Positions 2,147 through 46,349 of a stretch of 64,000 bases of DNA are shown piece after piece (position 1 is the stretch's first letter; the number at the start of each line of letters is the position of its first letter). The stretch covers positions 4,154,001 to 4,218,000 of the forward strand of contig NC_021499.1 in assembly GCF_000412695.1 (NCBI RefSeq). The letters run 5' to 3'. A program made the translations under genes and the position numbers. This DNA is from Pseudomonas resinovorans NBRC 106553 (GTDB lineage Bacteria > Pseudomonadota > Gammaproteobacteria > Pseudomonadales > Pseudomonadaceae). The notes under the pieces are model-generated. The model worked only from the letters and a program-made list of their open reading frames with translations. It had not been told where the DNA came from and searched no databases.

Positions 2147-3184
2147 TCATTGCGGGGCCGGGCTCGAGCGGTAGTCGCTGCGGCGCTTCAACTGGAAGTC
2201 GCGCACGGCCTGGTTGTGCTCGCCCAGGGTCTCGGAGAATACATGGCTGCCGTCGCCGCGTGCGACGAAGTAGAGGCTCTTGCCCGACGCCGGATGCAAC
2301 GCGGCGCGGATCGCCTCACGCCCGGCAAGGGCAATGGGGGTCGGCGGCAGGCCGCTGATGACATAGGTGTTGTAGGGCGTCGGCTCGCGCAGGTGGTCGC
2401 GGGTCAGGTTGCCGGCGTAGCGCTCGCCCAGGCCATAGATCACGGTAGGGTCGGTCTGCAGCAGCATGCCGGTGCGCAGGCGCCGTACGAAGACGCCGGC
2501 GATCTCTTCGCGCTCGCTGGGCACGCCGGTTTCCTTCTCCACCAGGGAAGCCATGATCAGCGCCTGATACGGATCGTTGTAAGGCAACGGATCGGCGCGC
2601 CGCTCCCACTCCTCGGCCAGCACCTGGTCCAGGCGTTCGCGGGCCTGCTTGAGAATGTCGATGTCGCGCATTCCCCGCACAAATCGGTAGGTGTCGGGGA
2701 AGAAGCGGCCTTCCGGGTACTCGCCGGGACGCCCGATGCGCGCCATGAGTTCGGCGTCGCTGACGTCCGCCAGGGTCTGCTCCAGCTTGGCCTGCTTGGC
2801 CAGCGCCGCACGCACCTGACGGAAGTTCCAGCCCTCCACCAGGGTCACGCTGTACTGCACCACCTCGCCGCGCTGCCAGAGCCCCAGCAGGTCGGCGGCG
2901 CTCATGCCCGGCGTCATGCGGTATTCGCCGCTGTGCAGGGATGCGTTGGAGAGGTTGAAGCGCCAGTACTGGCGCAGCCAGAAGGCATTGTTCAGAACGC
3001 CCTCCTCCTCCAGCCGGTTCAGCAGGCCGCCGGGGGTGGCGCCAGCCGGTACGTCCAGCATCCTTTCGGAGGAGATGTTCAGGGGTTGCTCGAGGGTGAC
3101 GTGCTGCTGCCAGCCGGCAAAGGCCACCAGCAGGCCGGCGAGAAGCAGGCCTGCCTCCAGCATCAGCAGGAATTTGCGTATCAC
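2147..3184 (-). CDS. mltG: Endolytic murein transglycosylase MltG
   Basis: A 345-residue inner-membrane YceG-like protein. MltG cleaves nascent peptidoglycan strands and is thought to act as a terminator of glycan polymerisation. One N-terminal membrane helix (about residues 5-24) anchors the protein, and the rest is periplasmic. The catalytic glutamate is expected at E216 in the segment ASLVEKETG, corresponding to E218 of E. coli. The C-terminal YCEG-domain sequence GLPPTPIALAGREAIRAAL is intact. It lies between pabC (3 bp upstream) and tmk. Confidence 0.94.
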   Translation of the reverse strand: MIRKFLLMLEAGLLLAGLLVAFAGWQQHVTLEQPLNISSERMLDVPAGATPGGLLNRLEEEGVLNNAFWLRQYWRFNLSNASLHSGEYRMTPGMSAADLLGLWQRGEVVQYSVTLVEGWNFRQVRAALAKQAKLEQTLADVSDAELMARIGRPGEYPEGRFFPDTYRFVRGMRDIDILKQARERLDQVLAEEWERRADPLPYNDPYQALIMASLVEKETGVPSEREEIAGVFVRRLRTGMLLQTDPTVIYGLGERYAGNLTRDHLREPTPYNTYVISGLPPTPIALAGREAIRAALHPASGKSLYFVARGDGSHVFSETLGEHNQAVRDFQLKRRSDYRSSPAPQ

Positions 3185-3187
3185 GAA

Positions 3188-4002
3188 TCAGATGTCCAGT
3201 AGATCGCGGGCGATGGCCTGAAGTTTACGGGTCAGCGGCCCGACCGGCCAGTTTTGCTCTGTTACCGAACGCACTGGCCAGATACCGAAGAGGCTGTTGC
3301 AGAGAAAGACCTCGTCGGCCTGGAGGAGTTCGCCGTACGAGACATCGCGTACGTCGACCTCGATCCCCTGTGCGCGGGCACTGCCCAGAAGCGCCGCACG
3401 CATCACACCGGCGACGCCGCAGCGGGACAAATCGGGGGTGACCAGGCCGCCGTCGCGCACCAGGAACAGGTTGCTGAACACCGCCTCGATCACTCGCCCG
3501 GACTGATCACGCATCAATCCCTCGGCGAACTCGCCACCCTGCCATTCGGCTCGGGCGAGGACCTGTTCCAGGCGATTGAGATGCTTGAGGCCAGCCAGCA
3601 GCGGCTGCTCCGCGAGGCGGGTGGCGCAAGGGAAGAGCCGCACGCCCTGCTCGGCATTGGCCTCGGGGTAGGCCGGGAAAGCGCTGCTCTGCAGGATGCG
3701 TCGGGGCAACGCCACGGGTGGCGGAGCGTAGCCGCGCAAGCCTTCGCCGCGAGTGATCATCAGCTTGGCGACGCCCTCCCCCAACCCGGCCGAGAAGGCC
3801 AGCAGCTCGGTGCGCATCAGCGCAAGATCGAGGGCGATACCCAGGCGCCGACAGCCTTCGGCCAGGCGCGCCAGGTGGTACTCGAGAAGCGGGGGTCGAC
3901 CGGCGCGTACGGCGATGGTTTCGAACAATCCATCGCCGTAGGCCAGGCCGCGATCCTTGATGGACAGCGACTCGGCCGGATGGCCGTCGACCCAGCTCGG
4001 CA

Positions 4003-4003
<1 letters not shown>
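3188..4003 (-). CDS. pabC: Aminodeoxychorismate lyase
   Basis: A 271-residue PLP-dependent fold-type IV enzyme. It converts 4-amino-4-deoxychorismate to p-aminobenzoate plus pyruvate in folate synthesis. The N-terminal segment YGDGLFETIAV and the C-terminal SLFGIWPV region are typical of PabC. Its ATG overlaps the fabF stop codon by one base (TGATG), so the gene is probably translationally coupled to fabF. A D-amino-acid transaminase is a less likely alternative because of the fabF-pabC-mltG context. Confidence 0.92.
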
Positions 4004-5247
<1,244 letters not shown>

Positions 5248-28735: not shown

Positions 28736-28787
28736 GGTCCGAGCGAGAAACCGGCCCATGCCTTGTGGGCCTCAAGGAGAAAGCCCG

Positions 28788-31478
<2,691 letters not shown>

Positions 31479-31651: not shown

Positions 31652-33097
31652 CTAACCCCGCACCACGCCCAGGTCCTGCACGTTGCGCCCGTAGACATCC
31701 TCCAGCCGCTCGATATCGTCCTCGCCCAGGTAGCTGCCGGACTGCACCTCGATGATCTCCAGGGGAATCTTGCCGGGGTTCGCCAGGCGGTGGACCGAGG
31801 CGATGGGGATGTAGGTGGACTGGTTCTCGGTGAGCAGGAAAGTCTTGTCGTCGCAGGTCACCCGCGCGGTGCCGGACACCACTATCCAGTGCTCGGCGCG
31901 GTGGTGGTGCATCTGCAGGGAGAGCTGGGCGCCGGGCTTCACGGTGATGTGCTTGACCTGGTGACGGGTCCCCGAGTCCACCGAGTCATAGCCGCCCCAA
32001 GGGCGATAGACCTGGCAATGGCTCTGGGTTTCCGAGCGGCCACTGGCATCCAGGGTGCCCACCAGCTTCTTCACGTCCTGCACCTTGTCCTTGTGGGCGA
32101 TCATCACCGCGTCGCGGGTTTCCACCACCACCACATCCTCCATGCCCAGCAGGGTCACCAGCTTGGAGCTGCCGTGGACGTAGCAATTGTGGCTGTCATG
32201 GGACAGCACATCGCCCTTGAGCACGTTGCCGTCGCCGTCCTTGGCATTGACCTCCCAGAGCGACGACCAGCTGCCCACGTCGTTCCAGCCGGCGGAAAGC
32301 GGCACAACGCAGGCACGGGCGGTCTTTTCCATCACCGCGTAGTCGATGGAGTTGTCCGGGCAGCACTCGAAGGTGCCCGGGTCGATGCGCAGTACCTCGC
32401 GCTCGCCTTTGCTGCGCTCCAGCGCAAGCACACAGGTGTCGTAGATGTCCGGCTCATGGCTGCGCAACTCGTCCAGGTAGCGGCTGGCCCGGAACAGGAA
32501 CATGCCGCTGTTCCAGTAGTAACCACCACTGCGCACGAATTCCGTGGCACGAACGCTGTCCGGCTTCTCGACGAACTGTTCGACCCGCAGGGCGCCGGGC
32601 GCCAGCGCCGCGCCGTCGCCCTCCCGCGCCGCCTTGATGTAGCCGAAGCCGGTTTCCGGACGCTCGGCGGGAATGCCGAACAGCACCATCTCGCCCTCCT
32701 CCGCCGCCGCCCGGCCGATCTCCAGGGCCTGGCGCAGGCCGCTTTCGTTGCTGATCACATGGTCGGCGGGCAGCACCAGCAGCAGCTCGTCACGGCCCTC
32801 GGCGAGCACCCGCAGGGCGGCGATGGCCACCGCCGGCGCGGTGTTGCGGCCGAAGGGTTCCAGCAACACCGCCTGGGCCGCCAGGCCGATGCCGGCCAAC
32901 TGCTCGTTGACGATGAAGCGGTGCTCCTGGTTGCACACCACCATGGGCCGCTCGATGCCGTCGAAGCCCAGGCGCTGCAGGGTCTGCTGGAACAGCGTGC
33001 GCTCCCCGGCCAGGGCCAGGAACTGCTTGGGATAGAGCTTGCGCGACAGGGGCCAGAGCCGCGAACCACTGCCGCCGGACAGAATCACTGGAATCAT
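31652..33097 (-). CDS. algA: Mannose-1-phosphate guanylyltransferase / mannose-6-phosphate isomerase AlgA
   Basis: A 481-residue bifunctional enzyme. It makes mannose-6-phosphate from fructose-6-phosphate and later converts mannose-1-phosphate to GDP-mannose, the alginate precursor oxidised by AlgD. The N-terminal pyrophosphorylase motif is GGSGSRLWPLSRK, with FVEKPD further on. The C-terminal type II isomerase cupin contains QMHHHRAEHW. The ATG at 33097 follows an AGGAG sequence. It is the last gene of the alginate operon, separated from algL by 107 bp where algIJF would normally be. Confidence 0.96.
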   Translation of the reverse strand: MIPVILSGGSGSRLWPLSRKLYPKQFLALAGERTLFQQTLQRLGFDGIERPMVVCNQEHRFIVNEQLAGIGLAAQAVLLEPFGRNTAPAVAIAALRVLAEGRDELLLVLPADHVISNESGLRQALEIGRAAAEEGEMVLFGIPAERPETGFGYIKAAREGDGAALAPGALRVEQFVEKPDSVRATEFVRSGGYYWNSGMFLFRASRYLDELRSHEPDIYDTCVLALERSKGEREVLRIDPGTFECCPDNSIDYAVMEKTARACVVPLSAGWNDVGSWSSLWEVNAKDGDGNVLKGDVLSHDSHNCYVHGSSKLVTLLGMEDVVVVETRDAVMIAHKDKVQDVKKLVGTLDASGRSETQSHCQVYRPWGGYDSVDSGTRHQVKHITVKPGAQLSLQMHHHRAEHWIVVSGTARVTCDDKTFLLTENQSTYIPIASVHRLANPGKIPLEIIEVQSGSYLGEDDIERLEDVYGRNVQDLGVVRG

Positions 33098-33172
33098 GCT
33101 TGCCTCTCCTCTCAACCCGCGAATCCAACAGGGGCCGTGCCGTCTTCCCGACGACCCGGCCGGATCAAGCCT

Positions 33173-33191
33173 CCGGCACTCCCTGTGCCGG
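33173..33191. other. Hairpin in the algL-algA junction
   Basis: CCGGCAC (33173-33179) and GTGCCGG (33185-33191) with a TCCCT loop, in the 107 bp between algL and algA. There is no T-tract on the minus strand, so it is more likely a processing or stability element than a terminator. Confidence 0.45.
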
Positions 33192-33204
33192 GCAAACGCA
33201 TGTC

Positions 33205-34296
33205 TCAGTCACGCCCGCCGACCTGGGTCGGCGCGGCGAACAGCTGGGTGATGTCGCCACCCAGCCGGTAGGTCTTCAGCGGCTCGATGGAACGGCGCCA
33301 GGCCTCGGTGCTGGCGGCGCAGCGATAAAGCGCGCAATAGGGCTCCAGCCAGGCGAACTTGCCGTCCTCCTGGAGATCCTCCAGCTCCTGCTTGAAGCCG
33401 GTCTTGTCAGCGAACCGCTGCGGGTCCTCGATGCCCTGCTCCACCCGCGTGGCCAGGCGCTGGATGGCGCGGTGGTTGGCCTCGCGCAGGTCGATGCCGT
33501 TGGCCTGGGCGAAGGCCAGCATCATCAGCAGCGGCCCCATGCTGTAGTTGTGGTACGCCAGGGCACGGGTCTCGCGGTGCAGCTCGTTGGGCAGGTAGCC
33601 TTCGGCGTCCACCTGGGAAATACCGATCCGCAGTTGCGCCACGGACCACTCGAAGAGGTCACGGCGATCGACCACCACCGACGCGGCCATCACCGCCCAG
33701 GCGGCCCAGTACTGGTGGTTGTTCAGGCGCTCCAGAGGCTGGTCGCGCCAATCGTCCACCACCTGCTCGCCGAGACGGGCGATCCAGGCCTCGATGGGCC
33801 GGGTCTGCGCTTCGCGCCCGAGCAGGGGCTGGGAGCGGGAAAACTTCAACCGCAGGTAGGCCGAGGAAATACTGCCCAACGCCCACTTGCGCATGGACTT
33901 GCCGGTATGGGTGAACTCCCGGCTCAGCAGCGCCTCGGCCGCCGCCCACTGGCCCAGCCATTCCAGGGCGCAGTCCAGGTGCCCTTCGCGGCCCAGCCGC
34001 AGCCAGGCGGCCACCTGCTTGTTGACGGTCTTTTCCAGCACGCGGATCTGCTCGGCGCGGGCCTGGTAGCGCGCATTGGAATCGACGTTCAACTGGTCGC
34101 GGGCCGGGCCCGAGCCTTCGTACTTGCTGGGAATGTTCAGGTCGCCGACGTAAGGCCTGGCCACCACCGGGCACGTTTCCGCCGTGCCCTTCTTCAGCGT
34201 CGCCGGCAGGTAATAGCCGCCAGGCGGTACCAGCTCGGTGGCCATCCCCATTGCCGGCAGCACCAGCAACGCCAGCAACGCACCGACGCGGTTCAC
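33205..34296 (-). CDS. algL: Alginate lyase AlgL
   Basis: A 363-residue periplasmic poly(beta-D-mannuronate) lyase. It degrades alginate that strays into the periplasm during export. The start is a GTG at 34296 overlapping the algX stop (GTGA), giving a signal peptide (NRVGALLALLVLPAMGMA). The conserved NNHQYWAAW motif of the (alpha/alpha)-barrel PL5 lyases is present, as is HNYSMGPLLMM with the catalytic tyrosine region. Length matches P. aeruginosa AlgL (about 367 aa). Confidence 0.95.
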   Translation of the reverse strand: MNRVGALLALLVLPAMGMATELVPPGGYYLPATLKKGTAETCPVVARPYVGDLNIPSKYEGSGPARDQLNVDSNARYQARAEQIRVLEKTVNKQVAAWLRLGREGHLDCALEWLGQWAAAEALLSREFTHTGKSMRKWALGSISSAYLRLKFSRSQPLLGREAQTRPIEAWIARLGEQVVDDWRDQPLERLNNHQYWAAWAVMAASVVVDRRDLFEWSVAQLRIGISQVDAEGYLPNELHRETRALAYHNYSMGPLLMMLAFAQANGIDLREANHRAIQRLATRVEQGIEDPQRFADKTGFKQELEDLQEDGKFAWLEPYCALYRCAASTEAWRRSIEPLKTYRLGGDITQLFAAPTQVGGRD

Positions 34297-35681
34297 GACC
34301 CGGCTCCGGCCTGGGCGGTGCGCAGCTCGGGCCGCGCCTGGTCGCTGCGCGCCTTGCACAGCCGCGCGCTGAGCTCGCCCTGGCTGCCGCCCGGCATGGC
34401 CTGGACACTGAGGGCGAGGAAGGTCAGGTCGTCCCAGTCGGCATCCTCACGCAGTTCCAGCAGGAAGCGTCCCGGCCCGGTGCCGCGCTCGAACAGCAGG
34501 TTCTCCTGGCGGCCGTTCATGAAGGTCAGGGTGGCGCCCAGTTGCTGCACGTCCGGGGCTTCCAGTTGCAGCTCGATGCGGTAGTCGCTGCCACGGATCG
34601 GCAGCACCCCGTCGGCGCCGTTGAACAGCACCTGGCGGCTACCGCCGGCGAGGCCGGTACGCCCCTGGAGCAGCGCGGGCTGGCCGCTGCAGCCATCGCC
34701 CACGGCGGCGATCGCTTGCCGATAGAAGTTGCGTTGCATGAGGCTGTCGGCATCGTCCAGTTCCCAGACCAGCAGCTTGGGCGATTTCTTCCGGTAGTCG
34801 GCGCTCATCAGGTACTGCATCAGCGCGCTGGTGTGGCCGCCGCTGGCGAGGCTGGCATTGCGCACCGGCGTGCCCAGGTACTGCTCGAGGAAGCCGGCGA
34901 AGTTGAAGGCGTCGGCGCTGTTGCTGCTGCCCACCAGCACCACGTCGGCCTCCACCGCCGCCTCGGGCTCCAGGGGCCGGGTCACATAGCCCTGGACGAA
35001 CTGCCGTGGGTAGCCGGTACCGCAGGCCATCTGGGCGGCCTTCTGCAGCGAACCGCTGCGGCCCACCAACCCCGCCGGCTGGCTGGCGTATGCCCCGTGG
35101 GGCAGCTGCGCCAGCGCCGGGATGCCCCGCGCCGTCTCGGCCACCAGGCGCGCGGTGCGTTCGGCGCCCTGGGGCGTCCAGTGCTGGTCGCCCTTGAAGT
35201 AGTAATCCGGGGTTCCGGCCTGGGCCTCCAGGAGGCTCGCCAGGTCAGGCACCCAGATATCCAGCTTGCGCAGGCGCGCCAGGGTCGCGCGGTAGTTCTC
35301 CCGCGCCTGGGCCTGGTCGAAGCGGGCGCGATCGGCCGGCTGCAGCTTGTCGCCGTGAATCAGCCCGCGACTGGGCGGGTAGACCACCAGCAACTCTGTG
35401 CCGTTGTGCTTCAGGGCATTGCGCAGGCGCTCCAGCTGCTTGTAGCTGTAGTCGTCCAGGCCGAACTGGCTGCGCAGGTCCTGGGCACGGCTGAACAGCC
35501 AGCCGTCGCGGGCCTCGACCAGGCCACCCAGGCCCGCCAGGCCGGGCAGGCTCGGATCGAGGCTGGCCGCCGCCGGGCACAGGCTGCAGCAGGCCTCGGC
35601 CTGGTAGGTCGGCGGCGCGGCGCGCAAGTCGCTGGCGGCCACCAGCAGAGTGGCCGCGATCAGGTAGGTAGCTCGGTTCAT
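34293..35681 (-). CDS. algX: Alginate O-acetyltransferase / export scaffold AlgX
   Basis: A 462-residue periplasmic protein with an N-terminal SGNH-like acetyltransferase domain and a C-terminal carbohydrate-binding module. In P. aeruginosa it transfers acetyl groups to mannuronate using donors supplied through AlgI/AlgJ, and is also needed for secretion. The expected catalytic residues are kept: D165 and H167 in KGDQHWTP and S253 in VGSSNSAD. It is preceded by AAGGAG overlapping the end of algG. The partners algI, algJ and algF are missing from this operon. Confidence 0.94.
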   Translation of the reverse strand: MNRATYLIAATLLVAASDLRAAPPTYQAEACCSLCPAAASLDPSLPGLAGLGGLVEARDGWLFSRAQDLRSQFGLDDYSYKQLERLRNALKHNGTELLVVYPPSRGLIHGDKLQPADRARFDQAQARENYRATLARLRKLDIWVPDLASLLEAQAGTPDYYFKGDQHWTPQGAERTARLVAETARGIPALAQLPHGAYASQPAGLVGRSGSLQKAAQMACGTGYPRQFVQGYVTRPLEPEAAVEADVVLVGSSNSADAFNFAGFLEQYLGTPVRNASLASGGHTSALMQYLMSADYRKKSPKLLVWELDDADSLMQRNFYRQAIAAVGDGCSGQPALLQGRTGLAGGSRQVLFNGADGVLPIRGSDYRIELQLEAPDVQQLGATLTFMNGRQENLLFERGTGPGRFLLELREDADWDDLTFLALSVQAMPGGSQGELSARLCKARSDQARPELRTAQAGAGS

Positions 35682-35685
35682 CGCC

Positions 35686-37206
35686 TCACTCCTTGCTGGC
35701 CAGGCTGCCGGCGGGCTCGATCAGCACCGCCCGCTGCTGGCGCAGCAGAATGTCCATGATTTCGCCCTGGTGTTCGCCCAGCAGGCCGCTGAAGGAAATG
35801 CCCGAGGATTTCTGCGGCGCGAGGATGTTCAAGCGGTACAGCTCGAGCCGGGTCGGCGAGTGCACCGAAATCGGACTGGAGCCGTTGCCCACCAGTTGGT
35901 CGCCGACGATGCGCAGCGACACCCTGGGATCGAAGGGGTCTTCCTCCAGGTCACGGTGGGTGCCACGCAGGTCCTTGATGTGGCCGTAGATGCCGGTGAG
36001 CTTGTTGGCCGCCAGGAGGTTGCCGTAGAGGCTCACGTCCAGGCTGTTGCGCACCCGGATGCCGTGCCGCTCGTTGTTCGTGCTGCGGTTCTGCCAGAGC
36101 AGGTTGTGCGGGCTTTCGTAGAGGGTGATGCCGTCGGACAGGTTCTTGTAGGTTTCGTTGAAGGCCACGACGTTGTTGACGCTGCTGCGGTCCAGGACGA
36201 TGCCCGAGAGCTGGTTGTGGTGGGAGCGGTTGTTGATGATCCAGCTGTCGTTGACCTCGCGGGAAATGATGATGCCGTGTTTCTTGCGGGTCCCGAAGGC
36301 TTCGTTCTCGGCAATGATCAGCCGCCGCGAGCGGTCGTGGGGGTCGATGCCGTAGACGATGTTGTGCTCGTAGGTGTTGCCGCGTATCACCACGTCGTCG
36401 GCCTCGTAGCAGTAGAAGCCGTACCACATGTCGATGAAGCGCGAGTTCAGCAGCCAGCCGGTGGGCCGCGCGCGCCTCATCTTCGGCGCCATGCTCGGGC
36501 TGTACTGGGAGATGGAGAAGCCGTAGGCCTTGCTGGCGTCGTAGCCGAAGCTCTGGATCACGCTGTCGACCACATAGGTTTCGGTGCCGCCCCAGGCCAG
36601 GAAATACGGGCGGAACTCCTTGCCGTCGCGCCAGAACGCCGGGGTGCCCTCCTTCTCGCGCCAGGCGGTCACCCGGGTTCCGGTGATGAACATCCTCCCG
36701 TCGTTGACCAGGAAGGCACCGGCCTCCTGGGACAGGCGCAGCTCGCGGGTAGCGCGGTCGATATGCAGGGTGGCGCCAGGCCGCACGATGATCGGCAGAC
36801 GCGCCAGGTAGACGCCGGGCTCGGTCTCGGCGAAGAGATTGTCTGGCAGCTGCCTGGCCAACTCGGCGGTGTTCAGGTAACCGTTCTCGATGAAGATCGC
36901 CTGGGGCATGCGCTTCTGCCGCACCACCCATTCCTTGAGGCGTTCGTCGCCGCCGATGAACTCGTCCAGGGCGTCCTCATGGAGCATGTCCTTGACCACC
37001 ACCCGGCCCGCCGGCGGACGCTGGATCTTCGCTTCGACGGCGGCGGCGGTGTAGCCGGAAAGATCCGGCAGCGCGGGCGGGGCCATGTCCAGGGTCTCCC
37101 CGGGTTCCGCGCTGAGGCGGTAGCCGTCGGCAAGCATGTCGGCGCTGGCCAGGGTGCAGGCCAGCCAGCCGGCCAGCGCGAGTCCCACCTTGATCGTCCG
37201 TTGCAT
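35686..37206 (-). CDS. algG: Mannuronan C5-epimerase AlgG
   Basis: A 506-residue periplasmic right-handed beta-helix enzyme that converts mannuronate to guluronate in the polymer. With the ATG at 37206 the signal peptide is MQRTIKVGLALAGWLACTLA, and the catalytic DPHD motif is at residues 288-291 (GIDPHDRSRR). An in-frame TTG six codons upstream is less likely because GGAGA precedes the ATG at good spacing. It starts 14 bp after algE. Confidence 0.95.
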   Translation of the reverse strand: MQRTIKVGLALAGWLACTLASADMLADGYRLSAEPGETLDMAPPALPDLSGYTAAAVEAKIQRPPAGRVVVKDMLHEDALDEFIGGDERLKEWVVRQKRMPQAIFIENGYLNTAELARQLPDNLFAETEPGVYLARLPIIVRPGATLHIDRATRELRLSQEAGAFLVNDGRMFITGTRVTAWREKEGTPAFWRDGKEFRPYFLAWGGTETYVVDSVIQSFGYDASKAYGFSISQYSPSMAPKMRRARPTGWLLNSRFIDMWYGFYCYEADDVVIRGNTYEHNIVYGIDPHDRSRRLIIAENEAFGTRKKHGIIISREVNDSWIINNRSHHNQLSGIVLDRSSVNNVVAFNETYKNLSDGITLYESPHNLLWQNRSTNNERHGIRVRNSLDVSLYGNLLAANKLTGIYGHIKDLRGTHRDLEEDPFDPRVSLRIVGDQLVGNGSSPISVHSPTRLELYRLNILAPQKSSGISFSGLLGEHQGEIMDILLRQQRAVLIEPAGSLASKE

Positions 37207-37220
37207 CGTCCCGTTCTCCG

Positions 37221-38669
37221 TCAAATGCGCCAGATGAAGTCGACAAAGGCGCGGTGCATGGTGGAATCCGCGTCATCGCCGTAGGCGTCGCCGGGGAAGA
37301 ACAACCCCAGGCGCATGCGCACCAGCGCCGAGGGTTCGTCGACCCAATCCAGTCCCGGCGGCACCAGGCCGCCCTTGATGTAGTAGGTGGCGACCAGGTC
37401 GAGTTCCTGGCCGAGGTCCTTGTCGCCGTCCACCAGGTTGGCGCTGAGGCCGGAATCGCCGGTGGGCTGGTCGTCGTCCAGGCGCCAGAAGCGGTGGTAG
37501 ACCAGGCTGGCGTCGTAGTCCTCGCGCGCCGCCAGAGAGCCATAGAGGGTGGCCACCTGGATGTTGGTCAGCTCGCCGCGAAACGCCTCGCCGAAGCGGT
37601 GCACGCGGGTGCGGGTGCCGGTGAAGCTGGAGCGGTTGCTTTCCAGGCCCGGCTGCACGAACTGCTCGGAGTCCCGGCCGTTGGAGTCGACGCCGCCGCT
37701 GCCACGGGCGTAGGCGCCGCCCAGCCGCCACTGGTCGTCGATATTCCAGCGCAAGCCCAGGTCCAGCGCCCAGGCATCCAGGTCGCCGCTGCGGCTGCCG
37801 GTGACCAGGGGCAGGCCGGAGGTGCTGCTCTGGGTGACGCTGTCCTGGTCGCCGGTGAGCCAGATGGCCTGGGCCCAGTAGTTGAACGGCAGCGTGGTGC
37901 GCGGGTTGAAGTAGTCGCCGTCGGCCTGCAGCCCCAGCCAGGTGAGGTCGCCGGTCTGGGTCTTGGACAGCGAGTCCAGCTCTTCGCCGACCCGCGCCAG
38001 GTGGCCGTCGTCGCGGCTGTGGTGGAGCTTGGCGCCGACGCTGTGGCCCGGCGCCCACTGGGTGGAAATACCCGCGAAGTAGTGCCGGCGGTCTTCGTCC
38101 TCGGGCGCCAGGTCGTCGATGTCGGTGCGGTATTCGCTGAAGCGCTCGGCCACGCCCAGGTTGGCCTTGAGCAAGGTGGTGTCGAACACCCAGTGCAGGG
38201 CTTCGATATTGGTGTCCCACCAGGTGCCTTCGTCGCTGCGTACCCGTTGCCGGCCAAAGCGCAGATGCTCGCCGGGGTAGGCGGTGAAGCCGCCGTAGTC
38301 GACCCAGAACTCGCGCATTGCCAGGTAGCTCTTGTCGGCTTCGCGGGCGTCGTCATCGTCCTCGCTGTCGGCCACTATGCTGTCCGACTCCAGGGTATCG
38401 GTCTCGATCACGTCGGTGGCGGCTACGCCCTGCCCCATGGTGTAGGCGCTCCAGTCGCCCCACTGGCCGTAGAGCCAGGGCCGCACATCCAGGCCGATGC
38501 CCTCGACATCGCCACCGGAGCGGGTGCCCAGGTCGCGGTCGTCCTCGGACTGGCCGGTGACCTTGATGTCCAGGCCGAAGTTGCGTGGTGCCTCCAGGGT
38601 TGCCGCCGCAACCTGGCCGCAGAGCAGCGAACCACCCAGGATGCCCCCCATCCAGCCCGTCACTTTCAT
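37221..38669 (-). CDS. algE: Alginate export porin AlgE
   Basis: A 482-residue outer-membrane 18-stranded beta-barrel that exports alginate. It has an N-terminal signal peptide ([22 protein letters not shown]). Many Asp/Arg-rich strands and loops follow, including a very acidic segment [16 protein letters not shown], and the C-terminal strand ends [11 protein letters not shown]. It overlaps the algK stop by the ATGA arrangement. Confidence 0.95.
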
Positions 38670-40048
38670 AGCAGGTCCACTCCGTTCTGCAGCGGTTGAA
38701 TACGGGCCAGGCGTACCGGGTCGACCACCTGCCGCGTGCCCTGTTCTTCCTCGAGGAGCTGCGCGGCGCGTTGTCGCTCGGCGGCACTCATGGCCGGTTC
38801 CAGGGTGGCCAGCAACCGGGTCGCCTCGGGTTGCGCCCGGCTCGCCGCCATACGCGCGAAGACGTAGGCGTTCACCCGATCCACCTTGACCCCGAGGGAC
38901 TCGCTGAACATCTGCGCCAGGGCCAGGTCGGCCGTCGAATGGCCCGCGCGGGCCGCCAGCAGCAGGCGGTCCAGCGCGTCCTGGGGGCGTACCTCGCCCA
39001 GCAGGCCACGGCGATAGAGCTGCCCCAGGTAGTAGTTGGCCGCCGGCTGCTCGGCCGCGGCCCTGAGCAAATGGGCTTCGGCGAGATGCGGGTCCATCGG
39101 CAGCAGGCGCCCGTCGTAGTAGAGGCGTCCGGTGAGCAGCTCGGCGCGGCTGTCTCCCGCCCCACGGCCACGCTCCAGGTCGCCGAGCATTTCCTCAGTG
39201 CCGCCGAGGGCTGGGTAGTCGTAGAGCAGCTTGGCCAGGGACGCCCAGGCACCGGGGTAAGCCGGTGCGATCTCGTCCAGCAAGGCCTTGGCCAGGCTCA
39301 ACTCGGCCGGCGCCGGGATACTCGGATCGGCGAGGGCCAGCGCCACCGATTCCACCCGCGTGGGCGGCACCAGGCTGGCCGCGTAGGCGCCGCGCAGGCG
39401 GGTCAGCAACTGCTCCATGGCCTCGGGCTGCTGGCGCAGGCGGTAGACGGTGGCCAACTCCAGGTAGCAGACATCCTGCAGGGCCAACTGCGCCTGGCAC
39501 TTGGCCTCGATTTCGGCCAGGTGCGCGGTGTAGCTGCCCTGGCTGCGGTAGATGAGGATCTGCGCCAGCTCGGCTTCGCCGATCCCCTGGGCCCGCCAGC
39601 CATCCACCAGTTGCTGCGGGTCCAGGGCCGGCGACAGCTGCGGGTAGTTCAGGTAGAGCGTGGTCAGGGGCACCACGGCGCTGTACTCGCCCTGGGCGAT
39701 GGCCTGGTTCAGCAGGCTTTCGGCCTCCTTGAGCTGGTCGTCGCTGGCGCCGCCCTGGCGCGACAGCAGCCGGCCGAGGCGCGACTGCGCACGCACCGAG
39801 CTGGGCGCAGCCTGGCGATACAGGCTTTCGGCCTCGGCCACCCGGCTGGGGTCGCGGCTGCCGGCCGCCATGTCGCCCAGGGCGGTCTGCGCATCGGCGT
39901 AGCCCTTGCCGGCCAGGGCCTCGTAGTTCTGCCGGGCGGTCTCGCTGTCACCGCGCGCCATGGCTTCGCGCGCAAGTTGCTGGTCGGGCAAGCCGGCGCA
40001 GCCCAGGAGCAGGCCGCAGCCCATCAAGGGCAGCAGGAGGGCCTTCAT
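38666..40048 (-). CDS. algK: Alginate biosynthesis lipoprotein AlgK
   Basis: A 460-residue outer-membrane lipoprotein made of Sel1/TPR-like repeats. It helps place AlgE in the outer membrane and links the periplasmic assembly. The lipobox is LLLGC with the lipidated cysteine at residue 17. The repeats run from about residue 30 to the C-terminus (for example [13 protein letters not shown] and [13 protein letters not shown]). The ATG at 40048 overlaps the alg44 stop as ATGA and removes a long false extension. Confidence 0.94.
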
Positions 40049-41223
40049 TTGCCGGCCGCCATGACCTTGTCCAGCAGCAGGTTGCCGGGCAGGCCGTCGA
40101 TGGTCACTTCCGCCGGGCGCCCGGCCATCTCGGTGGCCAGGGGTTCGCTGGTGAGGATGGACACCCGCAGGTCCGAGGCCAGGCCGCCCTGCTGCAGGGT
40201 CACGGAGCTGATGTGACCCACGCGCGGGACGCTCTCGCCGGCCACCTGGACGTTCACTTCGGCCCCTGGCTGCACCTTGGCGAAGGTCTTGTAGGGGAAG
40301 CGCGCCTCGATGGTGGCCTGGCCTTCCAGCGGCAGCAGCTCGAACACCGGTGCGCCCTTGGCGGCCGGCTGGCCGTCGCCCACCAGCTGCGCCACCACGC
40401 GGCAATCGCAGGGGCTGGTGAGGGTGCCCTGCAGCGACTTGCTGAACAGGCGCTCGATGTTGTCCGGGGTCATCTGCCCTTCCGGCAGGTTGTTCTTCAG
40501 CACATCGAGCATGGTGGCGCTGAAGGTGGCCAGCGGCGCGCCCTTGGCCACTTCGCCGCCCACCTTCACCAGTGCCGCCTGCACCACGCCCTCGCGCGGC
40601 ATGCTGACCACCTGGCTGGGCAGGTTGACCATGGCCGAGTCGGCATGGGTCACGAAATACAGCTGGTAGAGCTGGTTAAGGATGTAGGTGAAGGCGCCGA
40701 CGCCCACCAGGAAGATCGCCAGGCTGAAGGTCAGGGCCCGCAGGCGCCCGAAGAAGCCCATGCCGCCGCCGGCGCCCTTGCCCTTGCGCGCCTTGGCGAA
40801 GTTGTCGCGCTGCAGGGTGTTGAGCATGTCGCCCATGGTCACCATCTCGCCGCTGGTGTAGGCGGTGATCAGGTAGCGCAGGGCCGCCACTTCACGGGGG
40901 CGCAGGTTGTGGAACTCGCAGCCCACGCGCTTGCCCTCGCCCTGCACCGAGCGAACCTGGAACTCGACGTCGATGGCCATGCCCAGGCCATCCACCTGGA
41001 ACACCAGCTTGCCCTTGTGGTGCGAGCCCTCCTTCAGCGCGTGGGCGCTATTGGCAAAGCTGAAGCCGCCAGCGGAGAGATCCAGCAGCTCGCTCTCCAG
41101 TGTCTCGCGGTTGGGGCCGAGGAATCGCACCTTGGCCGGCATCTTGAGGCGCGCGTACTGACGCTGGGCCTCGGACTCGTGGACGATGTTCGAATTGCTG
41201 GCAACACCCGTGGCTGTGCTCAT
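40045..41223 (-). CDS. alg44: Alginate polymerase co-factor Alg44, PilZ-domain protein
   Basis: A 392-residue inner-membrane protein required with Alg8 for mannuronan polymerisation. The N-terminal PilZ domain (about residues 20-120) keeps the c-di-GMP-binding features: QRQYARLKMP with the RxxxR arginines and DLSAGGFSF. A membrane helix follows at about residues 165-185. The periplasmic part then resembles HlyD-type adaptor proteins. C-di-GMP control of alginate synthesis is therefore expected here as in P. aeruginosa. Confidence 0.95.
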   Translation of the reverse strand: MSTATGVASNSNIVHESEAQRQYARLKMPAKVRFLGPNRETLESELLDLSAGGFSFANSAHALKEGSHHKGKLVFQVDGLGMAIDVEFQVRSVQGEGKRVGCEFHNLRPREVAALRYLITAYTSGEMVTMGDMLNTLQRDNFAKARKGKGAGGGMGFFGRLRALTFSLAIFLVGVGAFTYILNQLYQLYFVTHADSAMVNLPSQVVSMPREGVVQAALVKVGGEVAKGAPLATFSATMLDVLKNNLPEGQMTPDNIERLFSKSLQGTLTSPCDCRVVAQLVGDGQPAAKGAPVFELLPLEGQATIEARFPYKTFAKVQPGAEVNVQVAGESVPRVGHISSVTLQQGGLASDLRVSILTSEPLATEMAGRPAEVTIDGLPGNLLLDKVMAAGK

Positions 41224-41289: not shown

Positions 41290-42771
41290 TTACACAACAC
41301 TCACAAGCACGGCCAGGAATACGCTGACCGCGGAAAACGTCATGGCCCGTGACGACCAGGCGTTGAACCAGCTCTGGAAGGTCGCCAGGCCCCGTTCCAG
41401 CCTGGTGTTCTGCCGCGTCCAGGACTGCCGGTCGAGACGGAAGAACACGTAGACCTTCACCATGGCGCCGAGCACCTGGTTGTAATAGAGAATCAGCGGA
41501 TAGGCCGGCCCGACCGGGTGCCCGGACGCCACCAGCAGCAGCGTCAGCGCCAGGCGCGTCATGCCGATCCAGAGCAGGTAGATCAGCAGGAACTGGATGC
41601 CGTACTTGAGGCTGGCGATGATCGCCACGGCCGGGCCCAGCAGGCTGGTCCACATGGCCACGCGCTGGTCCGCCAGCACCAGGCAGGTGAACCAGCCGAG
41701 ACGGCGCGGCCCGAGGCTCAGGGCGCGGGAGTTCTGCCGCAGGTTGTTGCCGTACCAGCGGAACATCAGCTTGCGGCTGGCCTTGAGGAAGCTCTTCTCC
41801 GGCGGGTGCTCCACCGTGTTGATCGCCGCGTCCGGCACGTAGAAGGTGTCGTAGCCCAGGCGCATCAGGCTGTACCAACTGGACTTGTCGTCGCCGGTGA
41901 GGAACTGGAAGCGGCCCAGGCGCCAGTGGTCCAGGTGATCGCTCTCGACGTCGGCGATGAAGCCGGGGTTGGTCACCACCTGGGCGCGAAACACCGACAT
42001 CCGCCCGGTCAGGGTCAGCACCCGGTGCGACAGGGCCATGGAGCACATGTTGATGTGGCGCTGGGCGAAGCGCAGCTTGTGCCACTCGCTCATGACGTAG
42101 CCGCCGCGCACCTCGCAGAACTCGTTGGTGGTGAGCCCGCCGACCTTGGGCAGCAGCCGGAAATACGGCACCGTCCGACGGATCACGCCCGGGGTCAGCA
42201 CGGTGTCGCCATCCACCACCGCCACCACCGCGTCGTCATCCGGCAGGTGCCGGGAAATGGCACGAAAGCCGTAGGCCAGGCCGTCGCGCTTGCCGGTCCC
42301 GGCGATGCGCACGAAGTCCAGGCTGACATGGGCCGGTGGATCGAGCTTGCGCCACAGGCTTTTGACCAGCAGCTCATCGGACATCTCCACCAGGGAGCAG
42401 ACCACCGTGGCCGGATAGCCGCAGGCGATGGCTTCCTCGATCACCGAGCGGTAGACCTCGGCGGTGGTGAGCGCATCGATGCGAAAGCTCGTCACCAGCA
42501 GGAAAACGTGGGACGGATCGGCCGCCTCCCCCAGCTTGCGCGCCTGACGCCGATACCAGGGGAACACCAGGTAGAGAAACAGCAAGCCGCGCAGGTAGTG
42601 GATGGCGCCCATGGAGTAGCGCCAGATGCCCACCGCCCCCAGCAACAGCAGGAAATCCCGGGACTCCGGGTCGAACACCGATTGCGGCATGGCCAGGGCC
42701 AGCAGCATCAGTGCGGTGCAAAACACCATCCAGCCGGCGCCTTCGCGCAGGCCGCGTGCCAAAGCTTCCAT
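41290..42771 (-). CDS. alg8: Mannuronan synthase Alg8
   Basis: A 493-residue inner-membrane GT2 glycosyltransferase that polymerises GDP-mannuronate. Conserved catalytic motifs include VDGDT (nucleotide/metal binding) and the acidic and basic motifs [22 protein letters not shown] and NLRQNSRAL. Membrane helices flank the catalytic domain at both ends. I used the ATG at 42771, 9 nt after GGAGG. It gives a protein one residue shorter than P. aeruginosa Alg8 (494 aa). Confidence 0.95.
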
Positions 42772-42847
42772 CCCCATCGCCCTCCAGAAAGGGGCCAGGC
42801 CCCTGCCCGGCCACGCCGGAATCAGGGGCTGGCGCCCGGGCATTTCC

Positions 42848-44158
42848 CTACCAGCAGATGCCTTCCATGCCGGCGCAGCTGCGCTCTTTCATGAAGCCCA
42901 CCAGGTCGACCACCGTCTTGCCCGGCGCCACCTTCTCCACCAGGCTGGCGAAGTGCGGATCGCCGTTGCCGAGGACGATGACGTCGGCCCGCGCCACCAC
43001 CTCGTCCAGGTCGGACCGCAGCAGCGAGGAGACGTGGGGAATCTTCGATTCGATGTAGTCCTTGTTGGCGCCGTGGACGCGGGCGTACTCGACGTTGCGA
43101 TCGAAGATGTGCAGGTCGAAGCCCTTGCCGATGAGCATCTCGGCCAGCTCCACCAGGGGGCTCTCGCGCAGATCGTCCGTGCCGGCCTTGAAGGACAGAC
43201 CGAGCAGGCCGATGCGGCGTTTGTCGTGGCTGGCGATCAGGTCGAAGGCGCGCTCCACCTGGACCCGATTGCTGCGCATGATCGAGTGCAGCAACGGATG
43301 CTCGATATCCAGTTGGCCGGCGCGATAGGTCAGCGCCCGCACATCCTTGGGCAGGCAGGAGCCGCCGAAGGCGAAGCCGGGACGCATGTAGTACTTGGAG
43401 AGGTTGAGCTTGTGATCCTGGCAGATCACCTCCATCACCTCACGGCCATCGACACCGACCGCCTTGGCGATATTGCCGATCTCGTTGGCGAAGGTGACCT
43501 TGGTGGCGTGCCAGACGTTGCAGGTGTACTTGATCATCTCCGCGACTTCGATGCCCTTGCGGATGATCGGGGCGTCCAGTTCCTGGTAGATGGCCTGCAG
43601 CAGGTCGCCGGAGGTCTGGTCCAGCTCGCCTATCACCGTCATGGCGGGATAGTCGTAGTCCTTGATGGCGGTGCTTTCACGGAGAAACTCCGGGTTGACC
43701 GCCACACCGAAATCGATGCCGGCCTTCATCCCCGAGCAGCGCTCGAGCATGGGCACCACTACGTTCATCACCGTGCCCGGCAGCACGGTGCTGCGCACCA
43801 CCACCGTGTGGCGCGAGCCCTTCTCCGGCAGCACGCTGCTGATCTGCTCGCAGACCTGGGCGATGTAGGACACGTCCAGGTCTCCATTCTTCTTGCTCGG
43901 CGTCGGTGCGGCGATAAAGGAAATATCGGTGGCCAGCACCGCTTCGCGCACATCCAGCGTGCCGCGCAGCCTGCCGCTGGCCACGCCCTGCTGGAGCAAC
44001 TCCTCCAGGCCAGGCTCGACGATGGGCGATTTGCCCTGGTTGATCATGTCGATCTTCACCGCGGCGATGTCCACCCCGACTATGTCGTGGCCCCGCGCCG
44101 ACAGGCACCCCGCGCAAACCGCCCCCACATACCCCAATCCGAAAATACTGATGCGCAT
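42848..44158 (-). CDS. algD: GDP-mannose 6-dehydrogenase AlgD
   Basis: A 436-residue NAD-dependent dehydrogenase, the committed step of alginate synthesis, oxidising GDP-mannose to GDP-mannuronate. The Rossmann motif [11 protein letters not shown] opens the protein. The catalytic cysteine lies in [15 protein letters not shown]. Length equals P. aeruginosa AlgD. The ATG at 44158 follows AGGGGG. It is the first gene of the operon, so its upstream region should hold the main promoter. Confidence 0.96.
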
Positions 44159-44783
44159 TGCACGACCCCCTGGGCTAATGGCCAATCCGGACCTCGCCGC
44201 AAAGGTGCGAGCATCCAACTCGTACATGACTCGAAGGCACGGCAGGATTCTTGGCGGGGAGCTGCAAGGCAAACCTCACCGCAACTTGAAAGCACAACAG
44301 CCGTAAAGCGGAAGACAACTTGCACAGAGCAAATCGAGTGCCACACAGGCACACAGATAAACACCTGAAGATTTCAAAATTAATAATCAATATAAAACAG
44401 TCAATTAACCTGAAACCCATCAACCACAGGCTTTTGACGCCAAAATAATCGGCACCAAAAGCTGGCACAAACCAACTTGAGGCCTGTTTAGAGTGCAAAC
44501 CAAGAGGAGTTATTGATTAACCAAAAGAGCAACCAGAATTGCGCCATATATCTGCCGGCATTTTTCCGACACAACTCAAACAGCCAAACTACGGGAAGCA
44601 TTTAGATATCGCCGCATAAACAGCGCCAAAAAACAAAGCGGATATTCAGGAGGGAAAGGAAAGGCGGCAAGGCACGCGCGGACAGCAGCTTCGGTGGGAA
44701 CCAAGTAGACTGCGCGCGAAAGAAAAGGCTCAACCTTAGCGCCTGGATGCCGATAGAAGCTGTAAGCCTTGCGGATGGACACC
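44159..44783. promoter_or_regulatory. algD-aer divergent intergenic region, partly AT-rich
   Basis: A 625-bp gap without a convincing gene. The stretch around 44330-44600 is markedly richer in A and T than its surroundings. It should contain the algD promoter (minus strand) and the aer promoter (plus strand). I searched for an AlgU-type GAACTT/TCtga promoter and for the known AlgR core sequence near algD and did not find a clear match to either. The algD regulatory region in P. aeruginosa is likewise several hundred bp long. Confidence 0.5.
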
Positions 44784-46349
44784 ATGAGAAACAACCAACC
44801 TGTTACCCAGCGGGAACGTAGCTTCCCCGCCCAGCAACGCCTGATTTCCACCACGGACAGCAAGGGCGTCATCACTTACTGCAACGAAGCCTTCGTCGAC
44901 ATCAGCGGCTACAGCCGCGACGAGCTGATCCACTCGCCGCACAACCTCGTGCGCCATCCGGACGTGCCATCGGCCGTGTTCGCCCACATGTGGTCGACCC
45001 TGAAGAAGGGCCGCCCCTGGATGGGCGTGGTGAAGAACCGCTGCAAGAACGGCGACTACTACTGGGTCAACGCCTACGTCACGCCGATCTTCGACGGCAG
45101 CCAGGTCACCGGCTACGAGTCGGTGCGGATCAAGCCGACCGCCGAACAAGTGCGCCGCGCGGAAAACCTCTACCAGCGCCTGAACGCCGGCAAGGCCGCC
45201 ATCCCCGGCCGCGACAAATGGCTGCCGGTGCTGCAGGACTGGCTGCCCTTCATCCTGATCAGCCAGATCGGCTTCCTCATCGGCGCCTGGCTGAACTCCC
45301 ACTGGGGCTTCCTGCTCGCCGCGCTGCTCTCGGTGCCGCTGGGCCTGGTCGGCCTGATGTGGCAGAACCGCGGCCTCAAGCGCCTACTGCGCCTGGCCGA
45401 GCAGACCACCTCCGACCCGCTGATCGCGCAGATGTACACCGACAGCCGTGGCGCCCAGGCGCGCCTGGAAATGGCCATGCTCAGCCAGGAAGCCCGCCTG
45501 AAGACCTGCCTGACACGCCTGCAGGACACCGCCGAGCACCTCACCCAGCAAGCCCGCCAGGCCGATACCCTGGCCCACAACAGCTCCGAGGGCTTGGAAC
45601 GCCAGCGGGTGGAAACCGAGCAGGTGGCCACCGCGGTCAACCAGATGGCCGCCACCACCCAGGAAGTGGCCACGAATGTGCAGCGCACCGCCGACGCGAC
45701 CCAGCAGGCCAATCGCCTGACCAGCGAGGGCCGCAACATCGCCGCCGAAACCCGCGAGGCCATCCAGCGCCTGTCGCAGTCGGTGGGCGAAACCGGCGAA
45801 ACCGTTACCCGCCTGGCCCAGGACAGCAATGAAATCGGCGGTGTGGTGGATGTGATCAAGGGCATCGCCGACCAGACCAACCTGCTGGCGCTCAACGCCG
45901 CCATCGAAGCGGCCCGCGCCGGCGAGATGGGTCGCGGCTTCGCCGTGGTGGCCGATGAAGTGCGCCAGCTGGCGCAACGCACGGCGGAGTCCACCGGGCA
46001 GATCCACCAGTTGATCGCCCAGCTGCAGAAGACCGCCGAGGAAGCCGTGCACACCATGGAAAACGGTCGTCGCCAGGCGGACGAAGGTGTCGAGCGCGTA
46101 CTCCAGGCCGACCAGGCGCTGGTGGGCATCAGCGAAGCGGTGGCCAACATCGCCGACATGGCCGACCAGATCGCCGCCGCCACCGAGGAACAGAGCGCGG
46201 TGGCCGAGCAGATCAACCAGAGCATCAGCAGCATCGCCCACCTGGCCGACCAGACTTCGGACGAAGCCCAGCGCACCGCGCTGCTCAGCGAGGAACTGAC
46301 CCATACCGCCCAGGGGCAGTACTCCCTGGTGGACCGGTTCAATCGCTGA
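44784..46349 (+). CDS. aer: Aerotaxis receptor Aer (PAS-containing methyl-accepting chemotaxis protein)
   Basis: A 521-residue chemoreceptor. The N-terminal PAS domain (about residues 10-115, [18 protein letters not shown]) is expected to bind FAD and sense redox or oxygen. Two membrane helices lie around residues 155-205. The cytoplasmic signalling domain contains the conserved hairpin tip ([19 protein letters not shown]). The start [11 protein letters not shown] matches P. aeruginosa Aer, and the gene is the expected neighbour of acnA there. In P. aeruginosa aer is ANR-regulated; no clear ANR box was seen here. Confidence 0.93.

Follow-up and report, generated by a model that had tools for sequence, protein, structure and literature searches.

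An alginate operon without algI, algJ and algF beside a complete one in Pseudomonas resinovorans, and its lineage in other pseudomonads

Two alginate operons on one chromosome

Nine alginate genes stand intact in the window, the 64,000-nucleotide stretch of the P. resinovorans NBRC 106553 chromosome analysed here, and the acetylation genes algI, algJ and algF are missing from the place between algL and algA where canonical operons carry them. The locus raises the question of whether the organism has lost alginate acetylation, whether the genes lie elsewhere, and what an operon of this kind would make. As the earlier note had described, the algL-algA interval is exactly 107 bp in the window sequence, bordered by the ATG start codon of algA, which ends at 33097, and by the stop of the algL open reading frame at 33205; the nine genes are all open, on the minus strand and in the order algD-8-44-K-E-G-X-L-A. 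Gene names were based on Pfam and on similarity to the canonical operon of the same genome, with NCBIfam equivalogs above cut-off as further grounds in the case of AlgG and AlgL:

42848..44158, minus strand: algD, GDP-mannose dehydrogenase (Pfam UDPG_MGDP_dh domains; similarity to the same-genome canonical AlgD)
41290..42843, minus strand: alg8, polymannuronate synthase (Pfam Glyco_tranf_2_3; similarity to canonical Alg8; no NCBIfam match)
40045..41223, minus strand: alg44, PilZ c-di-GMP receptor with an HlyD-like domain (Pfam PilZ and HlyD_3)
38666..40405 (open reading frame as listed), minus strand: algK (similarity to canonical AlgK over 424 residues)
37221..38669, minus strand: algE, outer membrane exporter (Pfam Alginate_exp)
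35686..37224, minus strand: algG, mannuronan C-5 epimerase (NCBIfam epimerase_AlgG above cut-off; similarity to canonical AlgG)
34293..35681, minus strand: algX (Pfam ALGX and CBM_26; alignment to 4knc; residue counts)
33205..34359, minus strand: algL, periplasmic alginate lyase (Pfam Alginate_lyase; NCBIfam mannuronate-specific alginate lyase above cut-off)
33098..33204, no strand: algL-algA interval, the place of algI-algJ-algF in canonical operons (sequence; canonical order)
31652..33097, minus strand: algA, mannose-6-phosphate isomerase / GDP-mannose pyrophosphorylase (Pfam NTP_transferase and MannoseP_isomer)

The listed frame of algK overlaps alg44, and its real start probably lies near 40050; that of algL likely lies near 34297, within the listed frame. 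By Pfam and motifs the components of alginate synthesis are present, namely Alg8 with a PilZ-containing Alg44, and algD with algA, together with the export and modification set AlgK, AlgE, AlgG, AlgX and AlgL, in which AlgK matches the NCBIfam AlgK_TPR_lipo equivalog at 548 bits, below its cut-off of 700. Whole-genome family searches found no AlgF, MBOAT or ALGX match in the window operon besides algX itself, in agreement with the claim that the proteins supplying the acetyl donor are not encoded there. A collapse of the interval during assembly was rejected, since the same arrangement without algIJF was found in 14 further loci.

The same searches located AlgF, AlgJ and an MBOAT protein elsewhere on this chromosome (6,285,863 bases, in a genome of 6,484,828 bases), at roughly 1.258-1.261 Mb, which puts them some 2.9 Mb away from the operon of the window. 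This distant region is a complete canonical operon of 12 genes, D-8-44-K-E-G-X-L-I-J-F-A, in which AlgI has an open frame of 510 codons, AlgJ, which retains its DxH and GTS motifs, one of 386, and AlgF one of 326, including an upstream extension. Protein identity between the two operons is 75% for A, 52% for L, 42% for X, 63% for G, 67% for E, 51% for K, 54% for Alg44 and 77% for both Alg8 and D. P. resinovorans, a soil bacterium, thus has two alginate operons, and only the one in the window lacks the acetylation genes. Of the alternatives in the earlier note, that the genes lie elsewhere holds for the organism, and a loss of acetylation genes by it was rejected on account of the full algIJF block, a finding that the note itself had named as a refutation; acetylated alginate, we propose, would come from the separate complete operon.

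Distribution, chromosomal sites and ancestry

Nine-gene alginate operons without algIJF were grouped as class II, comprising the window and L010-L014, L029, L034 and L088-L094, that is, 15 loci in 15 genomes, 14 of them distinct (L091 and L092 share identical AlgX and AlgG). All 15 have the order D-8-44-K-E-G-X-L-A and lack algI, algJ and algF, the genes by which a canonical acetylating operon is recognised, and a search for AlgI, AlgJ and AlgF in the 14 loci other than the window (E <= 1e-5) gave a cross-match between AlgJ and AlgX as its sole hit. A pattern-based scan of named genomes gave five relatives of the window AlgX at 51-79% identity, in P. resinovorans DSM 21078, Pseudomonas sp. CC6-YY-74, P. 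insulae, Pseudomonas sp. R5(2019) and P. fluorescens PS691. AlgX more than 50% identical to that of the window was present in at least 5 of 398 family genomes, its own included, and class II AlgX in at least 10 of 398 genomes from the group of G274, a set that overlaps the family one. Every class II genome (15 of 15) encodes AlgF elsewhere. The complete canonical operon was mapped gene by gene in eight of them (the window's own, G127, G070, G307, G274, P. insulae, R5 and G815) and in a ninth, PS691, except for algD, which fell outside the fetched stretch; in the remaining six it is represented by AlgF only.

The window operon lies between two genes:

28758..31478, plus strand: acnA, aconitase, on the algA side (Pfam; site comparison)
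44769..46349, plus strand: chemoreceptor gene with PAS and MCP domains, on the algD side (Pfam; NCBIfam chemoreceptor matches)

Among the NCBIfam matches of the chemoreceptor only the PAS domain exceeded its cut-off, and the gene is called aer-like here after the gene order of P. aeruginosa. In six loci (window, L010, L029, L011, L012 and L094) acnA and the chemoreceptor gene flank the class II operon on either side, and eight others tested (L092 being left out) show neither flank. In 18 genomes of the genus, the window's own among them, acnA adjoins the chemoreceptor gene with no operon in between in 12, is followed by a class II algA in three, and has neither within 1.5 kb in the other three. 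Away from the acnA site, L034, L088, L089 and L090 have upstream and some downstream open reading frames in common; among the longer flanking frames listed, L013, L014, L091 and L093 have none in common.

For the phylogeny, eight proteins, AlgX excluded, were analysed in 49 rows, 14 of them class II, under LG+G4 without mixture and rooted on class IV. This tree supersedes an earlier one of 39 rows that included AlgX. L092 was omitted as identical to L091 in AlgX and AlgG, and the trees do not include L066 and L067, outgroups from outside Pseudomonadaceae whose divergence prevented mapping them in full. Relatives were represented by tblastn fragments with uncurated starts and with internal stops written as X. 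Class II formed a single clade with support of 100/100, and class II together with L053, which is long-branched, fell outside the canonical group with moderate support (94/83 and 90/89). By this placement the window operon is a member of an old lineage separate from the host's canonical operon, and a loss from the usual 12-gene operon of P. resinovorans is not what the tree indicates.

Compared with the canonical Pseudomonas operon, class II matches the order and direction of its nine genes and occupies a different chromosomal site as a separate clade. A rival reading is a partial, recent and decaying duplicate of the canonical operon, and the legend of S5 Fig in PMC7112194 (2020), which carries the label '136', describes in P. 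resinovorans a partial duplication of the alginate operon with loss of the acetylation machinery; a passage of its text mentions more clusters for alg44 and algX. Going by that legend, species and missing machinery match, so that this duplication is very probably the operon of the window, and the absence of acetylation genes from it is already partly known. We nevertheless regard recent duplication as hardly credible: the pairing with the P. resinovorans canonical operon that it predicts was not seen in the tree, where class II is one clade and not the sister of that operon; identity between the two is only 42-77%; all nine frames are open, with dN/dS far under 1; and class II divergence between species follows that of the canonical operons (r = 0.84 over 36 non-independent pairs of nine species). 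The exceptions to this correlation suggest some transfer. Thus CC6-YY-74 (L011) and G815 (L094) show an identity of 0.91 for class II and 0.75 for the canonical operon, so that an exchange of one operon or the other is probable. Whereas the legend of PMC7112194 deals with a duplication event in one species, the present comparison concerns a clade spread over 15 genomes, its AlgX site damaged; in the open-access literature searched, no paper was found on a clade of acetylation-free alginate operons with an inactive AlgX.

Other second alginate operons were also observed. A passage of PMC3587930 mentions two alginate clusters in P. alcaliphila, giving no detail. L033 and L046 are reordered operons beside a canonical one, with Alg8 about 54% like that of the window and the order D-A-8-44-K-E-I-J-F-X-L-G in L033 (algG of L046 is not in the stretch); like class II they are second operons, but unlike class II they keep algIJF and the full AlgX active site, and they are possibly the rearranged clade of PMC7112194. 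L043 (G136:C157:7000-26900), likewise a second operon, has fragmentary algI and algJ at about 2850-4400, with algF and an intact AlgX site remaining, and its close relative L042 has a complete operon, so that L043 apparently lost acetylation genes independently and more recently. L038 (G401:C89:145500-151812), from Pseudomonas sp. R5(2019), seems to be an extra algI-algJ-algF-algA block near a contig end, and this strain perhaps has three alginate operons, counting the canonical and class II ones.

The AlgX active site and the putative product

According to the earlier note, the window AlgX keeps its acetyltransferase residues. This stands for D165, H167 and S253, which align with D174, H176 and S269 of P. 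aeruginosa AlgX, residues described in a passage of PMC4148444 as required for acetylation in vivo, but not for the active site as a whole, and two other positions differ. Y328, placed by the same source at the oxyanion hole, aligns with D312 of the window in the alignment to 4knc, with no gaps nearby; the class II residue there is D in 13 loci, T in L011 and A in L094. The second position is W400 in the carbohydrate-binding module. All 15 class II proteins have T there (T386 in the window); of the 68 others, 66 have W and two have Y. This Trp is important for alginate binding. The full set D-H-S-Y is complete in 68/68 distinct other AlgX and in 0/15 of class II, the 68 being a compared subset, reached after removal of five duplicate rows, of the AlgX matched in 253 of 398 family genomes and 354 of 398 genomes of the G274 group. 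Of the 15 class II triads, nine read D-N-S, two D-Y-G and one D-H-G, which makes 12 broken ones; the three that still read D-H-S belong to the window, L011 and L094. On the tree the state of the triad changed at least three times, a count that carries no direction.

The motifs DPHD of AlgG, NNHxxW of AlgL, RxxxR and DxSxxG of Alg44 and DGD of Alg8, as kept in the canonical operon, are found in 15/15 class II loci (the AlgG control gave one deviant row, DLQD, in 53). Class II retains a fraction of 0.81 of the near-invariant columns of AlgX, the lowest value, and 0.89-0.99 of those of the other eight proteins, figures that predate removal of the five duplicates and exclude L033 and L046. The dN/dS of class II AlgX was 0.149 in CA10 (the host genome), 0.238 in G127 and 0.155 in G070, and that of canonical AlgX 0.238, 0.134 and 0.186, respectively. 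Class II AlgX is under selection in these three species, even with the triad broken in two of the three copies, and relaxed selection across the whole protein was not seen in them. On residue patterns of this kind, the window AlgX is probably a scaffold with little or no transferase activity, and the AlgX of the window, L011 and L094 may have residual activity with AlgI, AlgJ and AlgF supplied in trans.

Acetylation governs how strongly alginate binds water, how viscous it is, how well it withstands lyases and how it is epimerised. According to PMC9734138, AlgX activity is necessary for acetylation and dispensable for secretion, deletion of AlgX impairs secretion, and deletion of AlgI, AlgJ or AlgF leaves secretion unharmed and the polymer unacetylated; a passage of PMC10641220 places AlgF as the link joining AlgJ and AlgX. 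We consider it probable that the class II operon synthesises, epimerises and exports alginate without acetylating it, AlgX being kept as an export scaffold; an AlgX that is retained with a decayed site in the absence of algIJF fits such a line. Alg8 and Alg44 would polymerise mannuronate under the control of c-di-GMP, AlgG would epimerise the polymer, AlgK, AlgX and AlgE would export it, and AlgL would clear the periplasm; AlgX would have been retained for export as its acetyltransferase site decayed, the Tyr being gone throughout and His or Ser lost in several. From these patterns we infer the absence of acetylation, the scaffold role and the order of the losses. Since acetylation shields alginate from epimerisation, as PMC4444821 states, and AlgG is retained, the product may plausibly be richer in guluronate.

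The non-acetylated product that the earlier note had suggested is thus favoured for the window operon by the Asp at the oxyanion position, the Thr in the binding module and the loss of His or Ser in 12 of 15 loci, and does not extend to the organism, which retains algIJF. As AlgF is encoded elsewhere in 15/15 class II genomes and D-H-S is kept by the window, L011 and L094, class II AlgX might instead be served in trans by the AlgI, AlgJ and AlgF of the complete operon, its polymer being acetylated and the missing genes merely shared; given the triad broken in 12/15, and the oxyanion Tyr replaced and Thr found at the Trp position in all 15, this is unlikely. If both operons were co-expressed, a mixed complex could also form in which canonical AlgX takes the place of its class II counterpart.

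How the operon came to lack the cassette is a separate matter. The position of algIJF varies: canonical operons carry it downstream of algL and class IV between algE and algX, and in L053 (G014:C28:275000-294900; order X-I-J-F-L-A), which is closest to class II in the tree but on a long branch, it separates algX from algL. PMC4444821 also cites a work whose title speaks of evidence that algI and algJ were transferred laterally. The class II ancestor might then never have had algIJF, the cassette having joined other lineages later, and the product would still be non-acetylated. We hold this origin to be quite unlikely, as class IV, L053 and canonical operons all have the full AlgX active site, for which an acetylating ancestor with decay in class II is the simplest explanation.

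Upstream regions and putative regulation

Two elements were located upstream of the window algD:

44329..44343, minus strand: sigma-54-like -24/-12 promoter TGGCAC-N5-TTGC (sole exact match in the window; aligned in relatives)
44452..44467, minus strand: upstream element [TC]GC-N7-TGGTGC (13 of 15 class II and 0 of 31 other algD upstream regions)

The first lies 185 bp upstream of algD, and TGGCAC-N5-TTGC at 9 or 10 of 10 positions, 160-240 bp upstream, was found in 8/15 class II loci and 0/31 others. Matches with one mismatch number 3 in the window, fewer than the chance mean of 7.2, so that weight is given to the exact, aligned site only. In the alignment, L034 and L088-L090 show a degraded -12 part, and the match is weak in L011, L091 and L092. 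The second element, which stands in a differing sequence context in L012, is a possible activator site. In addition, TTTGGTGC occurs in 14/15 class II loci and 0/31 others, against a highest count of 5 for any 8-mer across 100 shuffled sets, but class II rows are kin, so that shared upstream elements are non-independent and kinship alone inflates such counts.

In CA10, G127, G070 and G094 canonical algD is preceded, at a distance of about 480 bp, by the AlgU (sigma-22) motif GAACTT-N17-TCTGA, and an AlgR-like box is present as well. Unlike the canonical operon, none of the 15 class II loci carries the AlgU motif upstream of algD, a weak criterion as the strict motif occurs in just 5 of the 31 other upstream regions. 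NtrC found no support as the activator acting at the upstream element: against an NtrC consensus, class II scored no better than the other operons, and scores above shuffles occurred in few rows only and at another place. Pfam found no sigma-54 activator gene among 20 window open reading frames outside the operon, drawn from the 190 of at least 100 aa listed in the whole window, and no conserved activator gene was identified beside the class II operon. Class II may be under sigma-54 control, and the canonical and class II operons probably answer to separate signals, AlgU in the first case and sigma-54 with an activator in the second.

Taken further, and with only slightly better than even confidence, we propose that some pseudomonads run an AlgU-controlled, acetylated alginate system and an old sigma-54-controlled, permanently acetylation-free one in which AlgX is a catalytically dead export scaffold. 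If so, the second alginate would serve other circumstances, with an acetyl content, and perhaps a guluronate content, unlike that of the first. Repeated catalytic loss in an AlgX under selection would separate the acetyltransferase and scaffold roles in evolution, in parallel with the deletion work in P. aeruginosa, and one cell might then have a choice of two alginates.
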